IMG/VR virus record: IMGVR_UViG_3300005910_000039
Span: 1 to 21,748 of that record
Source: a virus
Strand: one strand, 5' to 3'
Length of the DNA stretch: 21,748 nucleotides
How positions within the stretch are numbered: the first letter of the stretch is position 1; the number at the start of each line of letters is the position of its first letter. This document shows positions 3,476-10,419 of the stretch, piece after piece. The notes beneath the pieces were generated by a model. It ran no database searches and was not told where the DNA came from. It worked only from the letters and a program-made list of their open reading frames with translations. The translations under genes were made by a program, and so were the position numbers.

Positions 3476-3486
3476 TAATAAAATAC

Positions 3487-3685
3487 AAGTCCGAGATGAC
3501 TCTATAAACTAAGCCCCAGAGAGCCACTCAACGCACATTGAGACTGGGTATAGGAATAGCAAGCCCTTGGTAATTAGTGGCGGGAACAAGGTGAAATGTA
3601 CTAGTTTTAATAGATAATGTGATGAAAAGACTAGACATGCGAAACCACAAGGACGTAGCTGCCCCTTGTAAATATAGGCAGGGAC
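3487..3685 (+). ncRNA. structured RNA region between tRNA-Asn and tRNA-Ser(GCT)
   Basis: No ORF. An extended arm is built from CTATA (3502-3506)/TATAG (3549-3553), CCCAG (3515-3519)/CTGGG (3544-3548) and CTCAA (3527-3531)/TTGAG (3538-3542). Its right side is almost continuous, with one unpaired A, and its left side has bulges. Further helices are CCTTG/CAAGG (3565-3591), CTAGTTTT/AAAAGACTAG (about 3601-3634, with ATAATGTGAT in the loop) and CTGCC/GGCAG (about 3659-3681). It resembles no tRNA and no intron core I recognise. Function is unknown. Confidence 0.5.
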
Positions 3686-3687
3686 AT

Positions 3688-3786: not shown

Positions 3787-3874
3787 GGGGAGTTACTCAA
3801 GTGGCTTAAGAGACTGGTCTTGAAAACCAGCAGATCGAGCAATCGGTGCAGGGGTTCAAATCCCTTACTCCCCG
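3787..3874 (+). tRNA. tRNA-Ser (TGA), ends at nucleotide 73 with no CCA; interrupted 3' end
   Basis: Acceptor GGGGAGT pairs perfectly with ACTCCCC (3867-3873). Anticodon arm is CTGGT-CTTGAAA-ACCAG (TGA). The T-loop is TTCAAAT. Unlike its neighbours, the discriminator G3874 is followed by CGGC, not CCA, where a GIY-YIG element begins. A second copy of nucleotides 60-76, ending in CCA, lies at 4566-4582. The gene could still mature by 3' trimming and enzymatic CCA addition. Confidence 0.9.
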
Positions 3875-3909
3875 CGGCTACATGATATTGCCTTCTCGTG
3901 GCGTAGCTG
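3875..3909 (+). other. conserved-shape hairpin at the left end of the GIY-YIG element (Ser)
   Basis: CGGCTAC (3875-3881) pairs with GTAGCTG (3903-3909). An 8-nt left bulge follows, then GCC/GGC closes a 7-nt loop TTCTCGT (3893-3899). The hairpin at 5571-5607 has the same plan with a different stem sequence, which implies selection for structure. Confidence 0.65.
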
Positions 3910-3950
3910 TTTAAACTAAAATATCAAAGATAGAAAGGAGCTATTTAATT

Positions 3951-4565
3951 ATGGCATACATCTACAAAATTATAAACAAGAAAAATGGTAAATGTTATAT
4001 CGGAAAGACAGAATCATTTGATCCTTATTCAAGATGGACAGAGCATAAAGCAGAAAATAGGCGTGCCAGGTCCAATCGAGCCCTCTATAGTGCTATGAGA
4101 AAATATGGAGAAGAATCCTTTACCTTTATGGTATTAGAAAAAACTGAGGAACCAAATAAACGTGAAATTGATTATATTACCCTCCATGATAGTTATCATA
4201 GTGGTTACAATGAAACATTAGGAGGCGATGGTAGGAGTTATTTAAACTTAGACACTAATGATGTCTGTATGTACTATCTAGCCGTTAATTCAATAGCAAC
4301 AACAGCAGAATATTATAAATGTGATGTCGGGACTATACGTAACATCTTATATAATAAGAATATCCCGACTTTAACTGGGGCGCAAGTTACTAAAAATAAA
4401 ACTAAAAAAGCCGTTGCTCAGATAGATAAAATAACAGATATGATTATAGCAACCTTTGAGTCTACAATGGAAGCAGAAAGAGCTGTGGGAGGGAATAAAC
4501 ACATTGCTGATGTGTGTAATAGAAAAAGAAAAACTGCGGATGGGTACAAGTGGAAGTATATATAG
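3951..4565 (+). CDS. GIY-YIG homing-type endonuclease with NUMOD1-like tail, 204 aa
   Basis: Predicted site-specific DNA endonuclease. The GIY-YIG nuclease domain covers about residues 1-95: YIYKI and CYIGKT form the two signature strands, SRWTEHK holds the conserved Arg, REIDYI the metal-binding Glu, and GYNETLGGDG the end of the fold. A helix-turn-helix-like segment spans about 105-140 (TAEYYKCDVGTIRNILYNKN). A NUMOD1/IENR1-type DNA-binding repeat spans about 155-204 (EAERAVGGNKHIADVCNRKR). GAAAGGAG at 3932-3939 sets ATG 3951. The stop codon abuts a copy of the 3' end of tRNA-Ser. It is related throughout to the gene at 5658, including the binding site and first codons. Its target is inferred to be a tRNA-Ser 3' end. 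Confidence 0.88.
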   Translation: MAYIYKIINKKNGKCYIGKTESFDPYSRWTEHKAENRRARSNRALYSAMRKYGEESFTFMVLEKTEEPNKREIDYITLHDSYHSGYNETLGGDGRSYLNLDTNDVCMYYLAVNSIATTAEYYKCDVGTIRNILYNKNIPTLTGAQVTKNKTKKAVAQIDKITDMIIATFESTMEAERAVGGNKHIADVCNRKRKTADGYKWKYI

Positions 4566-4582
4566 TCCCTGGCTCTCCGCCA
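4566..4582 (+). repeat. second copy of tRNA-Ser(TGA) nucleotides 60-76 with CCA
   Basis: TCCCTGGCTCTCCGCCA directly follows the GIY-YIG stop codon. Compared with 3861-3874 it supplies T60, the 3' T-stem strand, the acceptor 3' strand and G73, then the CCA absent from the upstream tRNA. It is a remnant or spare 3' end, not a whole tRNA. Confidence 0.75.
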
Positions 4583-4612
4583 AATTTAAAATTAATAGAA
4601 GGAGGTAATAAT

Positions 4613-4801
4613 ATGGACAAATTAGCGAAGAGATACAAGGACAAATATAACCAAGAAGTAAATGCAAAACGAAATATGTACAACAGACTAAAACGATACG
4701 ACAAACTAAAAAAAGCGGTAGAGTCTGAAGACAGTGTTTATGTAAATCAGTTATTAGAAGATATAAACGAAAGCAACAAAAATTATAAATTGCTCATCTA
4801 A
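4613..4801 (+). CDS. small basic helical protein, 62 aa
   Basis: GAAGGAGGT at 4599-4607 selects ATG 4613. An in-frame ATG at 4550 lies inside the GIY-YIG gene and is rejected. The protein is rich in Lys, Tyr, Asn and Arg (KLAKRYKDKYNQEVNAKRNM) and probably a single coiled helical unit. No family is recognised. It ends three bases before tRNA-Gln. Confidence 0.6.
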   Translation: MDKLAKRYKDKYNQEVNAKRNMYNRLKRYDKLKKAVESEDSVYVNQLLEDINESNKNYKLLI

Positions 4802-4804
4802 AAT

Positions 4805-4878
4805 TGCCCCTTGGTGAAGTGGTATCACACCACACTTTGACTGTGGCATCCGAGGTTCGAATCCTTGAGGGGCAACCA
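4805..4878 (+). tRNA. tRNA-Gln (TTG)
   Basis: Acceptor TGCCCCT pairs with AGGGGCA, with T1-A72 as usual for tRNA-Gln. Anticodon arm is CCACA-CTTTGAC-TGTGG (TTG). The T-arm loop is TTCGAAT. CCA is encoded at 4876-4878. Confidence 0.94.
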
Positions 4879-4881
4879 AAT

Positions 4882-4956
4882 GTGCTGCTAGCTCAATGGT
4901 AGAGCACCTCACTTTTAATGAGGTGGTTGGAGGTTCAAATCCTTCGCAGCACACCA
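4882..4956 (+). tRNA. tRNA-Lys (TTT)
   Basis: Acceptor GTGCTGC pairs with GCAGCAC. Anticodon arm is CCTCA-CTTTTAA-TGAGG (TTT). T-arm is GGAGG-TTCAAAT-CCTTC. CCA is encoded at 4954-4956. An HNH gene starts 18 bases later, but this tRNA's 3' end is intact. Confidence 0.95.
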
Positions 4957-4973
4957 AAATAAAGGAGATAATT

Positions 4974-5489
4974 ATGGAAAAGTGGAAACCTCTTATTTAT
5001 AATACTGTCGATTACGGGGTATTTTATGAAGTCTCTAATTTAGGCAGAGTGCGAAACGCAAAGACTAAAAGAGTTGTTAAATTAAACTCCTCACAAACAG
5101 GTTATTTATGCTATGTTGGAAGTTTAGGTAGTCGTTCTAAAAGCAAGTCATTTAGAATCAATCGTGCAGTTATGTGTTCTTTTGAGCCAGCTGCGGATAC
5201 GACAAAGGATGTAAATCATATAGATGGAGATAAACACAATAATACAATAAGTAATTTAGAGTGGTGTTCGGCAAGTGAAAATATAAGGCACGCATACCAA
5301 AATAAGTTAATGAGCCGTCGGACAGGTTCAACCAACTCTGCTGCTAAGTTATCAAATGAGGCCATTAAAAAAATAAGAGAACTATATATACGAGGAAACA
5401 AAGAATTCGGATGTAGAGCACTAGGGAAAAAGTATAATGTGGCTCATACAACAATCTCCGACATTGTGAATAACATTAGTTGGATATGA
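4974..5489 (+). CDS. NUMOD4-HNH endonuclease with C-terminal HTH, 171 aa
   Basis: Predicted free-standing homing endonuclease. A NUMOD4 domain spans about residues 3-48 (EKWKPLIYN, YEVSNLGRVRN). The HNH_3 core spans about 78-108 (VNHIDGDKHNNTISNLEWCS; H82, N95). A helix-turn-helix segment ends the protein at about 125-171 (GCRALGKKYNVAHTTISDIV). AAAGGAGAT at 4961-4969 selects ATG 4974. The in-frame ATG at 4896 lies inside tRNA-Lys. It sits between intact tRNA-Lys and tRNA-Arg(TCG). Unlike the GIY-YIG genes, it has no duplicated tRNA end. Confidence 0.88.
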   Translation: MEKWKPLIYNTVDYGVFYEVSNLGRVRNAKTKRVVKLNSSQTGYLCYVGSLGSRSKSKSFRINRAVMCSFEPAADTTKDVNHIDGDKHNNTISNLEWCSASENIRHAYQNKLMSRRTGSTNSAAKLSNEAIKKIRELYIRGNKEFGCRALGKKYNVAHTTISDIVNNISWI

Positions 5490-5496
5490 TAAATAT

Positions 5497-5570
5497 ACCC
5501 TTGTGGCGCAATGGATTAGCGCAGTTGGTTTCGAACCAATTGGTTGAAGGTTCGAGTCCTTCCAGGGGTG
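5497..5570 (+). tRNA. tRNA-Arg (TCG), ends at nucleotide 73 with no CCA; interrupted 3' end
   Basis: Acceptor ACCCTTG pairs with CAGGGGT (5563-5569, one T-G). D-arm is GCGC/GCGC. Anticodon arm is GTTGG-TTTCGAA-CCAAT (TCG). T-arm is GAAGG-TTCGAGT-CCTTC. After G5570 comes GGAACAC instead of CCA: a GIY-YIG element starts here. The 3' copy at 6276-6282 (CAAGGGT) complements ACCCTTG perfectly, better than the adjacent strand does. Confidence 0.9.
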
Positions 5571-5607
5571 GGAACACGAGTTTAACCACTTCCACGTAGT
5601 GTGTTCT
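5571..5607 (+). other. conserved-shape hairpin at the left end of the GIY-YIG element (Arg)
   Basis: GGAACAC (5571-5577) pairs with GTGTTCT (5601-5607). A 10-nt left bulge follows, then ACT/AGT closes a 7-nt loop TCCACGT (5591-5597). The counterpart at 3875 has unrelated stems but the same geometry and a similar loop (T-Y-C-W-C-G-T). Confidence 0.65.
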
Positions 5608-5657
5608 GGATAAAGCAAGGAGTTAAACAATGTAGTATAGAAAGGAGCTGTTTAATT

Positions 5658-6269
5658 ATGGCATACATCTATAAAGTTACAAACAAGAATAACGGAAAGA
5701 TTTATGTAGGTAAGACTAATCAAGATGTCAAACACCGTTGGAAACAACATTGCAACGATTTCAAGAGAACTAGAAACGAAAAGCGGCCATTATATGCAGC
5801 AATAAAAAAGTATGGAAGCAGTGCTTTTGAGATTTCGATTATAGAAGAAGTAATATCAGAGAAGAGTAGTGATAGAGAGATTTACTGGATTAACACTTTA
5901 GGAAGTTACAAGAATGGATATAACGCAACTAAAGGTGGCGATGGTACTATTTATATTGATTACGATTTAGTAGAAAGAACGTTTAATAACTTAGGATCAG
6001 TTTTAAAAACTACAGAGTTACTTGGTATACATGAGCAGACAGTTAGAAAAATATTGAAACAAAGGAATATCAGACTATTAACAAGATCAGAAATAGGAAA
6101 ACAGGCTAGTAAACCAGTGGGACAATACACCTTGGATAATGAAGTTATTGCAGTGTTTGGTTCTAGCAAAGAAGCCGCTAGAAGGCTAAATCTAAGAAGC
6201 TGTAATATATCAAGAACCTGTAATGGAAAAAGAAAAACAGCTTACGGATGCTTGTGGAGATTTATATAG
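5658..6269 (+). CDS. GIY-YIG homing-type endonuclease with NUMOD1-like tail, 203 aa
   Basis: Paralogue of the gene at 3951 and predicted to nick or cut a tRNA-gene target. The GIY-YIG domain spans about residues 1-98 (YIYKV, IYVGKT, HRWKQH with the Arg, DREIYWI with the catalytic Glu, GYNATKGGDG). A helix-turn-helix-like region spans about 105-140 (TELLGIHEQTVRKILKQRN). A NUMOD1-type repeat forms the C-terminus (KEAARRLNLRSCNISRTCNG). GAAAGGAG at 5640-5647 and the shared leader GAAAGGAGCTGTTTAATT fix ATG 5658. A longer in-frame start at 5601 lies inside the leader hairpin. The stop codon directly precedes a copy of the tRNA-Arg 3' end. Confidence 0.88.
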   Translation: MAYIYKVTNKNNGKIYVGKTNQDVKHRWKQHCNDFKRTRNEKRPLYAAIKKYGSSAFEISIIEEVISEKSSDREIYWINTLGSYKNGYNATKGGDGTIYIDYDLVERTFNNLGSVLKTTELLGIHEQTVRKILKQRNIRLLTRSEIGKQASKPVGQYTLDNEVIAVFGSSKEAARRLNLRSCNISRTCNGKRKTAYGCLWRFI

Positions 6270-6286
6270 TCTCTCCAAGGGTGCCA
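6270..6286 (+). repeat. second copy of tRNA-Arg(TCG) nucleotides 60-76 with CCA
   Basis: TCTCTCCAAGGGTGCCA follows the GIY-YIG stop codon. CAAGGGT is the perfect complement of the acceptor 5' strand ACCCTTG at 5497. G73 and CCA follow. The T-stem half (CTCTC) is diverged, so this is a partial 3' copy. Confidence 0.75.
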
Positions 6287-6296
6287 AATAATAAAT

Positions 6297-6408
6297 GAGT
6301 AGAGGCGGAAAATGTAGACGCGCTGAAGAAAATAATGTGTCCTCATACGGTGGGTAATCTTAGTGAACCACGCAAGGACGGTATAGAGTGTAAATCTCTA
6401 TCTACTCA
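6297..6408 (+). ncRNA. tRNA-Leu-derived tRNA-like RNA with altered anticodon arm
   Basis: Acceptor GAGTAGA (6297-6303) pairs perfectly with TCTACTC (6401-6407). The D-region GGCGGAAAATGTAGACGCGCT is nearly that of tRNA-Leu(TAG) at 6417. A T-arm-like TAGAG-TGTAAAT-CTCTA is present, but its loop breaks the TTC rule. The anticodon arm is replaced by CTGAAGAAAATAATGTG (6323-6339), shared with the RNA at 947. An extra arm GTCCT/AGGAC enclosing GTGG/CCAC spans about 6339-6378. There is no CCA (ACTA follows). Paired acceptor and arms argue against simple decay. Role unknown. Confidence 0.6.
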
Positions 6409-6416
6409 CTAATATG

Positions 6417-6598: not shown

Positions 6599-6679
6599 GC
6601 GGGTCGAATATGCGTAGTGATATCGACAAAGAAAAGAGAGAGGCATAAAGATTATTCTAGTCTCTTTCAACCCGCTCCA
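6599..6679 (+). ncRNA. tRNA-like RNA with acceptor stem and CCA but no cloverleaf
   Basis: GCGGGT (6599-6604) pairs with ACCCGC (6670-6675), followed by T and an encoded CCA (6677-6679), exactly as a tRNA ends. Inside there are two hairpins instead of three canonical arms: GTCG-ATAT/ATAT-CGAC (about 6603-6626, one bulged A) and AAAGAGA/TCTCTTT (about 6633-6667) with a long loop. No anticodon arm and no proper T-arm are seen. The 81-nt size equals that of a tRNA. It is either a heavily remodelled tRNA or a tRNA mimic. Confidence 0.55.
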
Positions 6680-6683
6680 ACTT

Positions 6684-6931: not shown

Positions 6932-6945
6932 TAAGAAAAATAATG

Positions 6946-7148
6946 AGGCCTTAAGTGGTCAACAGGTAGCCTAAGTATACTAGTAATTGCTTAGGTGGCG
7001 TAATGTCTTAATGTGAATCCATCGGTCGCCTATTTCGATAGAGCGGGCTAGGATTTTGTTTCATGGAAAACCTTTGTAGGTAACTCCTACATAAAAAAGT
7101 AACAAAGGCCTTAGGAGTTGCAAACGCTTTAGCCTTATTAGAAAGCGT
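6946..7148 (+). ncRNA. structured RNA region between tRNA-Ile and tRNA-Thr
   Basis: No ORF. AGGCCTT (6946-6952) and AAGGCCT (7105-7111) can close a domain. The domain holds CCTAAG/CTTAGG (6970-6995), GGCG/CGCC (6997-7030), CTAT-TTCG-ATAG (7030-7041, a stable UUCG loop), CCTTTG/CAAAGG (about 7071-7108) and the alternative TGTAGG/CCTACA (7075-7091). A perfect 7-bp hairpin ACGCTTT/AAAGCGT with an 11-nt loop (7124-7148) follows. Family not recognised. Too many consistent helices for ordinary spacer. Confidence 0.5.
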
Positions 7149-7155
7149 AAGACAA

Positions 7156-7231: not shown

Positions 7232-7236
7232 TATTT

Positions 7237-7307
7237 GGGGAAAAGTATGATACTAGTGCAATAAATATAATTGCATAATTTAGGTTTGAATCCTAATGAC
7301 TCCACCA
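7237..7307 (+). ncRNA. degenerate tRNA-like RNA with CCA end, lacking U33
   Basis: GGGG/CTCC starts an acceptor stem with mismatches below it. D-arm is reduced to AGTA-TGA-TACT. A 5-bp anticodon-type stem GCAAT/ATTGC holds a 7-nt loop AAATATA with A instead of T at position 33. T-arm is TTAGG-TTTGAAT-CCTAA, with T for C56. CCA is encoded at 7305-7307. It is most simply a decaying tRNA gene. A maintained decoy is possible because stems, length and CCA persist. Confidence 0.55.
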
Positions 7308-7312
7308 CAATT

Positions 7313-7839: not shown

Positions 7840-10419
7840 ATGAAGACTATTATACATATAAACAAGAAGCAAGCCGTTTTCACACGTAAGACTGGTAACG
7901 CTTTATATATATCATTTAGTTTAGATTTAGACGCCCTCCGTAGAATAAAAGAAATGCCCAAAAGAATATATCACTCTCAATGGTTAGAGTGGGAGATACC
8001 TATGAAAGATCTAGGTTTGTTCATGATGTTATTCAGAAGTTTTCCAATGACCACCGAGTCACCAGAGGAAACTAAGGATGTTGTAAATAAGATAAAGGAA
8101 TATAAAAAAGGTATTGCTGGTTTCGATGTGTCACAAATAAACGAAAATTTTAAATATATTACTAAGCCGTTTCCTCACCAACATGAAGCATTTATTTATG
8201 CACAGAATCACGAGATGTTCTTATTAGCAGATGACCAAGGGTGTATCTCAGGAGACGCCGTTGTTCAAATAAACTTTGGGAGAGCTTCTCAGAAGGTGTC
8301 ATTACGAAAAGCCTACGAGTTATTTAAAAAACATAATAGGAAGCCTCCATATATGTGCAGATGCTTAAAGAATAATATTTTTGGTCAACATGGAGTTAAA
8401 AATATATTATACAAAGGAGAACAACAAACCTATAAATTAACATTAACAAATGGATATCAAATTAAAGCCACTGGAGATCATCTAATTTTAACTGATGGGG
8501 GATATATTGAATTAACTAGTTTAAAGGTTAATGATAATATTGTTACAAATGGTACTTCTGTTTGTAAGTTATGCGGGAGTCATGAGAATCTAATCACTTA
8601 TAAGTACGCTAAATATTTGGGACACTGTAAAAAATGTGCTTATCAGCTAAGAGATTTAGATAGACATCCTAAAGAACATAAAAGAATGGACGCAGATGGT
8701 TACGTAGTATTATCAGGTAGTGATTATTGGGAGCATCCACGAAGAAATGCTTCTGGATATGTCTATGAACATATTATAATTATGGAAAACCATGTTGGAA
8801 GGCAAATAACAAATCAGGAAGTAGTCCATCATAAAAATAGGGATAGGTCCGACAACAGAGTAGAGAATTTAGAGTTATTATCAATGTCGGAGCATAGACA
8901 GAGGCATGTACCAGACTCAATAAATAACTTAATGGGTAGGAACTATAAATCAAAATCAGGATTGGACATCATAGTTGTTCCGAAATATGAGAAAGTCATC
9001 TCTGTTGAGAAGGATATAATTCAAGATGTATATGATATTGTTATGGACGAACCCTATCACAACTTTGTGGCAAATGGAATAGTAGTCCATAACTGTGGGA
9101 AAACTAAATGCGCAATAGACATAGCAGTTAGCAGACGAGGACAATTCAAACATTGTTTAATTATCTGTGGAGTTAATGGTTTAAAATGGAACTGGGAAAA
9201 AGAAATAGAACTACATAGTAATGAGAGTTGTCACATCCTTGGTACATATAAAGGTAAAGGAAATGTAACAAGACAGGGAGTCTCTACAAAGAAAATAGAA
9301 TCTCTGAATACAGAGAGAGACGACTTCTTTCTTATAACAAATAAAGAATCTTTGAACAACAAAGAGATACTTGCTATCTTAGAAGATAAGTGCAAGTCTG
9401 GTGAAATAGGAATGGTTATCATAGATGAGTTCCACAAAGTTAAAAACTACAGAAGTCAGGTAGGAAAGAATATTCACAAGTTATCAAGTTTCTATAAAAT
9501 GGCCTTGACAGGAACACCTTTAATGAATAGTCCGGTCGACTTATACAATTTGTTAAGATGGGTAGGAGTAGAAAATAGATCTCTTACTAACTTCGAGAAT
9601 AGATACTGTATGTTTGCTAGTGGTTTCATGGCGAGAGAAGTAGTAGGGTTTAGGAACATGCCAGAACTTCAAGAACGATTACACAGAGTTCAATTAAGAA
9701 GAAAGAAAGAAGATGTTTTAGACTTGCCACCAAAAATATTGTCAGTTTCGTATGTTGAACTTGACAAAGGTCAGCAAACATTGTATGATGATATTAAATT
9801 AGAACTAATCTCACAAATAAATGAAATAAAATTACTACCTAACCCATTGGCTAAATTAATAAGGTTAAGACAAGTAACAGGAGCCCCATCAATTTTAGAT
9901 CCAGAGTTGGGTTACGGAGTTAAGCTTGAGAGATTATTAGAACTTGCACAGGAATTAAAAGGACAGGGTTCTAAATTCATTGTGTTTAGTAATTGGAAAC
10001 AGGTAATACGAAGAGTAGAAGAGATGTTCAGAAGTTATGGTATTACATTTACGACAATTGATGGAGATGTAAAGGATACTGACAAGATGGCTAATATAGA
10101 TAGCTTTCAAAATGATCCGAATGTAACAGGACTATTAGGAACTACTGGTGCTTTAGGTACTGGGTTCACAGCACATGCTGCTGAATATGTATTTTTCCTT
10201 GATAGCCCATGGAACGAAGCCAACAAACGTCAAGCAGAAGATCGTGCCCATAGAATAGGAACTAAGCACACTGTTAACGTTGTAACCATCATAGCCAAAG
10301 ATACAATAGATGAAAGAATTGAAGATTTAATTTATAGAAAAAAAGAAATGTCGGATTTCCTTGTAGACGGTAAAGGTAAATCAGATTGGAACGAAATACT
10401 TACAAGTTTGTTAGAATAA
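7840..10419 (+). CDS. SNF2-family DNA helicase/translocase with an intein in its P-loop, 859 aa
   Basis: Superfamily 2 ATP-dependent DNA translocase, presumably for phage replication or recombination. After a leader domain (about 1-105), the Walker A motif is split. Residues 128-134 end LLADDQG and the motif resumes at C419-G-K-T, giving ADDQGCGKTK once the 284-residue intein (135-418) is removed. Motif II is DEFH (529-532), motif III TGTP (557-560) and motif VI QAEDRAHRIG (798-807). These are typical SNF2 motifs, although motif II is DEFH rather than the usual DEAH. The mature extein protein would be about 575 aa, normal for phage SNF2 helicases. AGGAGG sets ATG 7840 under the promoter at 7788. 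Activity should require protein splicing because the intein breaks the nucleotide-binding loop. Confidence 0.92.
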   Translation: MKTIIHINKKQAVFTRKTGNALYISFSLDLDALRRIKEMPKRIYHSQWLEWEIPMKDLGLFMMLFRSFPMTTESPEETKDVVNKIKEYKKGIAGFDVSQINENFKYITKPFPHQHEAFIYAQNHEMFLLADDQGCISGDAVVQINFGRASQKVSLRKAYELFKKHNRKPPYMCRCLKNNIFGQHGVKNILYKGEQQTYKLTLTNGYQIKATGDHLILTDGGYIELTSLKVNDNIVTNGTSVCKLCGSHENLITYKYAKYLGHCKKCAYQLRDLDRHPKEHKRMDADGYVVLSGSDYWEHPRRNASGYVYEHIIIMENHVGRQITNQEVVHHKNRDRSDNRVENLELLSMSEHRQRHVPDSINNLMGRNYKSKSGLDIIVVPKYEKVISVEKDIIQDVYDIVMDEPYHNFVANGIVVHNCGKTKCAIDIAVSRRGQFKHCLIICGVNGLKWNWEKEIELHSNESCHILGTYKGKGNVTRQGVSTKKIESLNTERDDFFLITNKESLNNKEILAILEDKCKSGEIGMVIIDEFHKVKNYRSQVGKNIHKLSSFYKMALTGTPLMNSPVDLYNLLRWVGVENRSLTNFENRYCMFASGFMAREVVGFRNMPELQERLHRVQLRRKKEDVLDLPPKILSVSYVELDKGQQTLYDDIKLELISQINEIKLLPNPLAKLIRLRQVTGAPSILDPELGYGVKLERLLELAQELKGQGSKFIVFSNWKQVIRRVEEMFRSYGITFTTIDGDVKDTDKMANIDSFQNDPNVTGLLGTTGALGTGFTAHAAEYVFFLDSPWNEANKRQAEDRAHRIGTKHTVNVVTIIAKDTIDERIEDLIYRKKEMSDFLVDGKGKSDWNEILTSLLE
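8242..9093 (+). mobile_element. intein with HNH homing endonuclease domain (in SNF2 helicase)
   Basis: Encodes host-protein residues 135-418. Splicing block A begins at C135 (CISGDAVVQI). Block B has the TxxH signature T211-G-D-H214 (KATGDHLILT). Blocks F and G end the intein: YDIVMDEPYHNFVANGIVVHN, split here as YDIVMDEPYHNF then VANGIVVHN, with N418, followed by C419 as the +1 residue. Between them lies a zinc ribbon (C242-x2-C245, C263-x2-C266) and an HNH nuclease (H330-H331, N339, N343, QEVVHHKNRDRSDNRVENLE). It is therefore a full intein with an HNH rather than the commoner LAGLIDADG nuclease. Insertion is inside the P-loop, between G134 and C419. Confidence 0.92.

Follow-up and report, generated by a model that had tools for sequence, protein, structure and literature searches.

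The stretch of DNA considered here (IMG/VR virus record IMGVR_UViG_3300005910_000039, positions 1 to 21,748; 21,748 nucleotides, hereafter the window) contains an array of transfer RNA (tRNA) genes. Two of them, tRNA-Ser(TGA) and tRNA-Arg(TCG), do not encode the terminal CCA, which is present in the other 14 of 14 tRNAs called by ARAGORN in the window. Each of the two is followed by a leader, a GIY-YIG endonuclease gene and, directly after the stop codon, a second tRNA 3' end. The two units probably belong to one family of mobile elements found in phages, each composed of a ribozyme of the hepatitis delta virus (HDV)-like theta type and a GIY-YIG gene, which would have entered the 3' parts of tRNA genes. 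The features on which this proposal is built are the following (nt, tRNA nucleotide number; L followed by a number designates other loci collected for comparison):

3787..3874, plus strand: tRNA-Ser(TGA), nt 1-73, without CCA and with an additional C at 3875 (ARAGORN; Rfam RF00005, 56.3 bits)
3859..3874, plus strand: repeat copy 1, tRNA-Ser nt 58-73, AATCCCTTACTCCCCG (sequence; 12/16 match to 4564-4579)
3876..3926, plus strand: predicted minimal HDV-like (theta-type) ribozyme after tRNA-Ser (descriptor scans; compensatory changes in the homologous ribozymes of L024, L025, L055 and L058)
3951..4565, plus strand: GIY-YIG endonuclease gene of the Ser unit, 204 aa (Pfam PF01541, 34.6 bits, E 2.3e-8)
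4564..4582, plus strand: repeat copy 2, tRNA-Ser-like nt 58-76, CCA-terminated (sequence, match count, acceptor pairing)
5497..5570, plus strand: tRNA-Arg(TCG), nt 1-73, without CCA (RF00005, 65.9 bits; ARAGORN)
5555..5570, plus strand: repeat copy 1, tRNA-Arg nt 58-73, AGTCCTTCCAGGGGTG (13/16 match to 6268-6283)
5571..5628, plus strand: predicted minimal HDV-like (theta-type) ribozyme after tRNA-Arg (descriptor scan; alignment A3 with 10 relatives)
5658..6269, plus strand: GIY-YIG endonuclease gene of the Arg unit, 203 aa (PF01541, 48.2 bits, E 1.3e-12; PF22083, PF07453)
6268..6286, plus strand: repeat copy 2, tRNA-Arg-like nt 58-76, CCA-terminated (sequence, match count; acceptor 7/7 Watson-Crick with the tRNA-Arg 5' strand)

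The GIY-YIG motif residues Y3, Y5, Y16, G18, R28, E72 and N87 (Ser-unit protein, alignment A1) are invariant, so that the catalytic residues are present, and the protein of the Arg unit also bears C-terminal, NUMOD-like DNA-binding motifs. Inspection of open reading frames and Pfam domains between the repeats found the GIY-YIG gene alone and no site-specific recombinase. The TAG stops are directly followed by the 17-nt tRNA 3' ends TCCCTGGCTCTCCGCCA (4566-4582) and TCTCTCCAAGGGTGCCA (6270-6286), the acceptor strands of which pair 7/7 with their tRNAs, entirely by Watson-Crick pairs for Arg and including two G.U pairs for Ser. Among the 228 N-CCA sites of the window, 7/7 pairing occurs once for the Ser acceptor and once for the Arg acceptor, in each case at the stop-abutting end of that unit. 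Over nt 58-73 the downstream copies match their own tRNAs at 12/16 (Ser) and 13/16 (Arg) positions, levels reached by only 1.9% and 1.1%, respectively, of mismatched tRNA/element pairs; their T-stems pair imperfectly (4/5).

Most of this layout had been described in a first-pass annotation of the window, and its tRNAs ending at nt 73, zero-spaced 3' ends, repeat-to-repeat distances of 705 and 713 and pairing with the acceptor 5' strands, perfect for Arg, are all as it stated. It had also given the extent of the copies as nt 60-76; the 17-nt end is indeed there, but the repeat already begins with nt 58, since the AG of the TAG stop doubles as T-loop A58-R59 (A58-G59 for the last two bases of the Ser-unit stop). 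What it had overlooked is the ribozyme nature of the leaders.

Leaders with the fold of theta ribozymes

Both leaders fit a nested double pseudoknot in which a G1.U wobble closes a P1 of 6-7 bp, followed by a nested P2, a 3-bp P3 and a 7-nt L3. The Ser leader has P1 GGCTAC/GTAGCT with the G1.U, P2 TGATATT/AATATCA, P3 GCC/GGC, L3 TTCTCGT and J4/2 CTAA; the Arg leader has P1 GGAACAC/GTGTTCT, P3 ACT/AGT, L3 TCCACGT, J4/2 CAAG and a P2, GTTTAACC, with a one-base bulge. The predicted catalytic C opens J4/2 in both (C3916 and C5616), and cleavage is predicted 5' of G3876, 2 nt past nt 73 of tRNA-Ser, and 5' of G5571, 1 nt past nt 73 of tRNA-Arg, so that both sites lie within 5 nt of a tRNA 3' end. 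Within the window a descriptor of this fold matches exactly twice, at 3876 and 5571, both at tRNA ends. Over the 651 kb of collected loci it yields 16 matches (score of at least 14) with the catalytic C, as opposed to 2, 0 and 0 when A, G or U is demanded there.

Along the same line, in an alignment of 11 related ribozymes including that of the Arg unit (A3), 99.4% of pair cells hold standard pairs and 14 of 18 pairs show double (compensatory) changes, an agreement that is in part expected because the descriptor had a part in choosing the sequences; neither the C-to-A/G/T control nor the position at tRNA ends was selected for. None of 500 shuffles attains the observed covariation, and the structure slid along the alignment is only 30-51% paired. 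The L031 ribozyme is matched by the Rfam family HDV-F-prausnitzii at exactly its own coordinates (2914-2968), below threshold (28.7 versus 44 bits). On these grounds both leaders are minimal HDV-like ribozymes of the theta type, predicted to cleave themselves where the tRNA ends. A group I intron or other splicing RNA at the insertion was considered and rejected, for there is no Rfam match and the tRNA body is complete upstream.

Other RNAs of this kind were met in the collected tRNA arrays. Strong theta-type ribozymes with neither a GIY-YIG gene nor a called tRNA adjoining lie at L025:3134, L047:1674, L054:5525 and L099:1255, where they end other non-coding stretches, the one at L054:5525 showing acceptor-like pairing (GATAGTTT/AAACTATC). 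Another leader, similar among L071, L105, L082 and L047 (e.g. GTAGCGTTAGAATAGCTAACTAACGAGATAAAGATGCTCCTACATC), separates a tRNA or non-coding stretch from a ribozyme-less GIY-YIG gene; it has no Rfam match in L071, L105 or L082, and is possibly a different structured RNA.

Recurrence of the unit and origin of its repeat

About 16 further units with a ribozyme followed by a GIY-YIG gene were found (L024, L025, L030, L126/L158, L031, L032, L034, L054, L055, L058, L079, L120, L121, L123, L125 and L145). They adjoin tRNAs for Met, Leu, Gln, Cys, Ala, Trp and Pro, which together with the Ser and Arg of the window makes nine isotypes. Because loci were gathered through GIY-YIG homology and ribozyme patterns, unit frequencies are not unbiased. 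Many gut and rumen phages are among the sources, three units being in INPHARED records of human faecal phages (MT837398, MT836666 and MT835492); the L145 unit lies in a bacterial metagenome-assembled genome. TAG serves as a stop in the window genes and is read as an amino acid in most of the other phages carrying such units. L079 is counted as a weak case: its ribozyme, with a 16-nt J1/2, was identified by visual inspection, and its fragment agrees with the tRNA at only 10/16 positions. Single window proteins used as GIY-YIG queries returned loci almost devoid of tRNAs, the exception, L014, having neither ribozyme nor fragment. The recurrence bears out the first-pass proposal of a family of compact GIY-YIG elements at tRNA 3' ends, with neither integrase nor splicing intron.

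The tRNA fragment behind the stop codon recurs as well. It was compared in a fixed register at the stop codon, a naive direct-repeat search over the whole upstream region being insensitive. In L030 a perfect copy (16/16) of nt 58-73 of the resident tRNA-Met, AATCCTACCTCCGCAA, follows the GIY-YIG gene, its first AA being the last bases of the TAA stop; the match is likewise 16/16 in L120, and 14/16 in L031 and L125. Such stop-abutting copies were seen in at least four independent further units, with conservation in L158/L126, and the flanking repeat is present in 8/18 units. Across 17 units, fragments match their own tRNA better than permuted pairings do (sum 153, p ~5e-5). Twenty ribozyme-less GIY-YIG genes close behind a tRNA, taken as a control, give no fragment signal (mean 6.3/16 versus 6.2 for mismatched pairs, p 0.37). 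Conservation of the fragment next to homologous genes, on which the first-pass annotation had staked its proposal, is therefore found among ribozyme-bearing units and is missing from ribozyme-less relatives.

An exception among the controls is L095 (2501-3121), where a ribozyme-less GIY-YIG gene 19 nt past a tRNA-Met has a 12/16 copy of that tRNA's 3' end after its stop; this is perhaps a unit that lost its ribozyme. The L056 fragment (TTTCGGGTACCA) fails to match the tRNA upstream of it and was excluded. In L023 (6715), L062 and L047 the GIY-YIG stop codon abuts or overlaps the 5' end of the next tRNA gene, and no 3' fragment is present.

A case in point for the origin of the repeat is the pair L120 and L123. 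Their common element is identical at 693/742 positions (93%), with sharp edges that coincide exactly with ribozyme G1 and the stop codon, while the tRNA-Met genes around it agree at only 49/87 positions (56%; range 54-56%), the 58-73 segments at 11/16 and the unrelated flanks at ~52-54% (element versus surroundings, Fisher p 3e-18). The edges thus delimit the mobile block as ribozyme plus gene. As the tRNA segments differ despite the 93% element, and as the downstream copy in L120 reproduces exactly the tRNA of its own phage, the duplicated end is host-derived. The same element at dissimilar sites, flanked by repeats of the local target (as the own-tRNA p also attests), is the pattern of a transposon-like insertion. 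L030 and L158, for their part, represent a single insertion shared by two related phages (93% for the element, 98% for the tRNA). To judge from these comparisons, the repeat of nt 58-73 is derived from the host and resembles a target-site duplication of ~16 bp, and the first-pass idea that the element brings its own replacement end is not supported.

Other features of the tRNA arrays may be mentioned. A NUMOD4-HNH endonuclease gene (4974-5489) is tightly placed between tRNA-Lys (end 4956) and tRNA-Arg (start 5497) of the window, and no ribozyme was found before it. At 7840-10419 an intein with an HNH endonuclease interrupts a SNF2-type helicase gene (Pfam Intein_splicing, HNH_3); the helicase as query retrieved distant relatives only, none with tRNA clusters. 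The non-coding inter-tRNA stretches 6599-6680 and 7235-7309, uncalled by ARAGORN, have acceptor-like ends and a terminal CCA; the former folds better than shuffles (z -2.9), the latter has a cloverleaf-like fold (z -1.55), and both are possibly odd tRNAs or tRNA-like RNAs. Further long non-coding spacers of the array (3476-3687, 6287-6415 and 6932-7155) have no Rfam match, and 6298-6413 folds no better than shuffles. Elsewhere, L120 contains a sub-threshold match to a Y RNA-like family (YrlA, 38.8 bits; 4106-4225), and L071 (1764-1830) and L105 (1875-1937) contain above-threshold cow-rumen-4 RNAs, all in phage tRNA arrays.

Proposed entry into tRNA genes and competing explanations

Under the proposed mechanism, the element enters the 3' part of a tRNA gene in such a way that the 16-bp resident segment bounded by T-loop A58 and discriminator base 73 would come to stand on both its sides, much as in a target-site duplication; the body of the upstream tRNA thereby stays complete. 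The ribozyme, being made of the first bases of the element, would cut the transcript at tRNA nt 73/74 and free the tRNA, after which host enzymes would remove the 2',3'-cyclic phosphate and then add CCA. The cyclic phosphate produced by HDV cleavage and the addition of CCA are established chemistry; a CCA-adding enzyme (PF01743) was found in 0/15 records of the phages hosting the units. Self-cleavage, and not a replacement end, is most likely what lets the tRNA mature. The downstream copy (nt 58-76, with the old CCA) would be a leftover free to decay, of which A58-R59 often completes the endonuclease stop codon.

The most likely recognition site of the endonuclease is the conserved T-loop of tRNAs (GTTCRANYC), and such a target would allow related elements to spread among tRNA genes. 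The window contains 17 GTTCRANYC sites, 16 of them at tRNA T-loop positions, where 1.9 would be expected. SegB, a GIY-YIG enzyme of phage T6 that cuts within tRNA genes, has a preference for RAWTSGAAC, whose reverse complement is the T-loop sequence GTTCSAWTY (PMC13096335); by analogy, the endonucleases of the present units may cut at the T-loop too, and the units may still be mobile.

Several observations weigh against this mechanism. I-TevI, the best-studied GIY-YIG enzyme, cuts with a stagger of 2 nt and not 16 (PMC2988022), which does not account for a 16-bp duplication. No empty allele was found in a close relative of any unit, in phage and viral collections. The downstream fragment is absent or decayed beyond recognition in ~10/18 units; the duplication is thus either not universal or fast-decaying, and the fragment looks dispensable. 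In the window the two copies of each repeat have diverged (12/16 and 13/16), and the Arg ribozyme has a bulged P2 and a J4/2 of CAAG rather than CNRA. Lastly, ribozyme-bearing proteins are scattered among plain ones in the GIY-YIG tree (11 label changes, at least 8 of them forced by strong branches; a number as low occurs in only 1/500 shuffles), so that the pairing of ribozyme and endonuclease appears modular, with ribozymes gained or lost, and not one old lineage. The Met elements are united in a single clade (support 100/99), a sign that lineages may have specialised on one type of tRNA.

This intermixing would also suit another explanation, in which the ribozyme is a resident tRNA-processing device of the phage and the GIY-YIG gene an ordinary free-standing homing gene that landed downstream by chance. 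Theta ribozymes are very numerous at phage tRNAs, the paper describing them is silent on endonucleases (PMC10879173), and in L049 a tRNA-Pro ribozyme stands without an endonuclease. Yet in L120 and L123 ribozyme and gene form one sharp-edged block inside dissimilar tRNAs, the fragment behind the stop places both between two copies of the same tRNA segment, and plain GIY-YIG relatives show no such fragment; a chance landing is accordingly given only a small likelihood. It is improbable, too, that the element carries nt 58-73 as a replacement end and that the downstream copy is the displaced native one. In its favour, of the two Arg copies in the window it is the downstream one that forms the better pairing with the 5' acceptor strand, the L079 fragment departs from its tRNA in the T-stem, and mobile open reading frames (mORFs) of Allomyces and Glomus offer a precedent with a foreign gene 3' end (PMC3630166). 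Against it speak the identity of both copies in L120 and L030 and the upstream segments of L120 and L123, far more divergent than the element; moreover, a carried end could not fit nine isotypes without swapping the acceptor stem each time.

The downstream fragment might alternatively be functional, nt 1-57 and the distant 58-76 being joined or folded into a tRNA that ends in CCA and in which the element would be a giant insert of the T-loop. The 7/7 acceptor pairing of both window tRNAs and the CCA agree with this, but Rfam reveals no splicing ribozyme, the T-stem is imperfect in the window, most units have no recognisable fragment, and the complete upstream body is followed by a conserved ribozyme with predicted self-cleavage; such an arrangement is scarcely credible. 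Very doubtful, if somewhat easier to imagine, is an RNA-mediated insertion of the R2 or Penelope-like kind, whereby the ribozyme would free the 5' end of the element RNA and a reverse transcriptase acting in trans would copy it at the cut tRNA. Like R2, the units have an HDV-like ribozyme placed precisely at the 5' junction; like Penelope-like elements, they have a GIY-YIG nuclease; and their repeats resemble target-site duplications. Against this, the element has no reverse transcriptase, and one was found in just 1/15 host records, several of which are fragments. Insertion of a ribozyme-endonuclease element into the tRNA gene, with duplication of the resident segment, is thus retained as the probable explanation.

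Relation to known systems

Each component has been described on its own: theta ribozymes located at tRNAs, tRNA clusters that contain GIY-YIG genes, and endonuclease elements accompanied by a second copy of a gene's 3' end. A full-text search of open-licence papers for a homing endonuclease and an HDV-like ribozyme combined in one mobile element returned nothing relevant. It is possible, if somewhat short of probable, that the units represent an undescribed class of mobile element, which would travel through tRNA genes by means of a T-loop-directed GIY-YIG nuclease, duplicate ~16 bp of the tRNA 3' end and be made harmless by a self-cleaving ribozyme at its 5' edge, and that many of the thousands of tRNA-associated theta ribozymes are living or decayed copies of it instead of recoding devices. 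The unit seems to jump between tRNA genes harmlessly through self-cutting and not splicing. This would be a second solution, besides self-splicing, for a selfish gene inside an essential RNA gene: release of the host RNA by cleavage, with a duplicated end remaining in place. With the conserved T-loop as its landing site, a single enzyme family could gain access to the tRNA genes of many different isotypes.

R2 elements have an HDV-like ribozyme at their 5' junction, and Penelope-like elements combine a GIY-YIG nuclease with ribozymes; the present elements differ from both in having no reverse transcriptase, in their size of ~700 bp and in their phage hosts. With group I introns that carry homing endonucleases in tRNA genes they share the use of a ribozyme to make a selfish endonuclease harmless (PMC3984707); here, however, the ribozyme would cut without splicing, and the tRNA body is completed by the duplicated segment instead of exon ligation. 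The fungal mitochondrial mORFs (Allomyces atp6, Glomus) likewise have an endonuclease gene in the 3' part of a gene, whose 3' end stands on both sides, yet that end is foreign and element-carried and the targets are protein genes, as opposed to a host-derived repeat, tRNA genes and a ribozyme (PMC3630166). T4/T6 SegB is similar in being a free-standing GIY-YIG endonuclease among phage tRNA genes whose cutting motif is the T-loop; it sits between tRNA genes, and the available parts of the two reports describe neither a ribozyme nor a flanking tRNA duplication (PMC13096335, PMC2988022).

The closest likeness is to the theta ribozymes themselves, of which four phage tRNA/ribozyme pairs were cleaved in vitro at the tRNA 3' ends (Kienbeck et al. 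2024, PMC10879173). Both share the P1-P2-P3 fold with a 7-nt L3, a J4/2 with catalytic C and no P4, the cleavage site at the 3' end of tRNAs that mostly lack CCA, and the occurrence in gut Caudoviricetes, many of them TAG-recoded (PMC10879173); a difference is that in the window CCA is encoded by the tRNAs outside the two units. Their published interpretation is that of devices for tRNA maturation or recoding, homing, endonucleases and GIY-YIG being unmentioned (PMC10879173), whereas the ribozyme described here would be the 5' edge of a mobile unit. TRNA-associated theta ribozymes would thereby gain a testable origin and purpose, namely the shielding of tRNAs from an inserted endonuclease gene.

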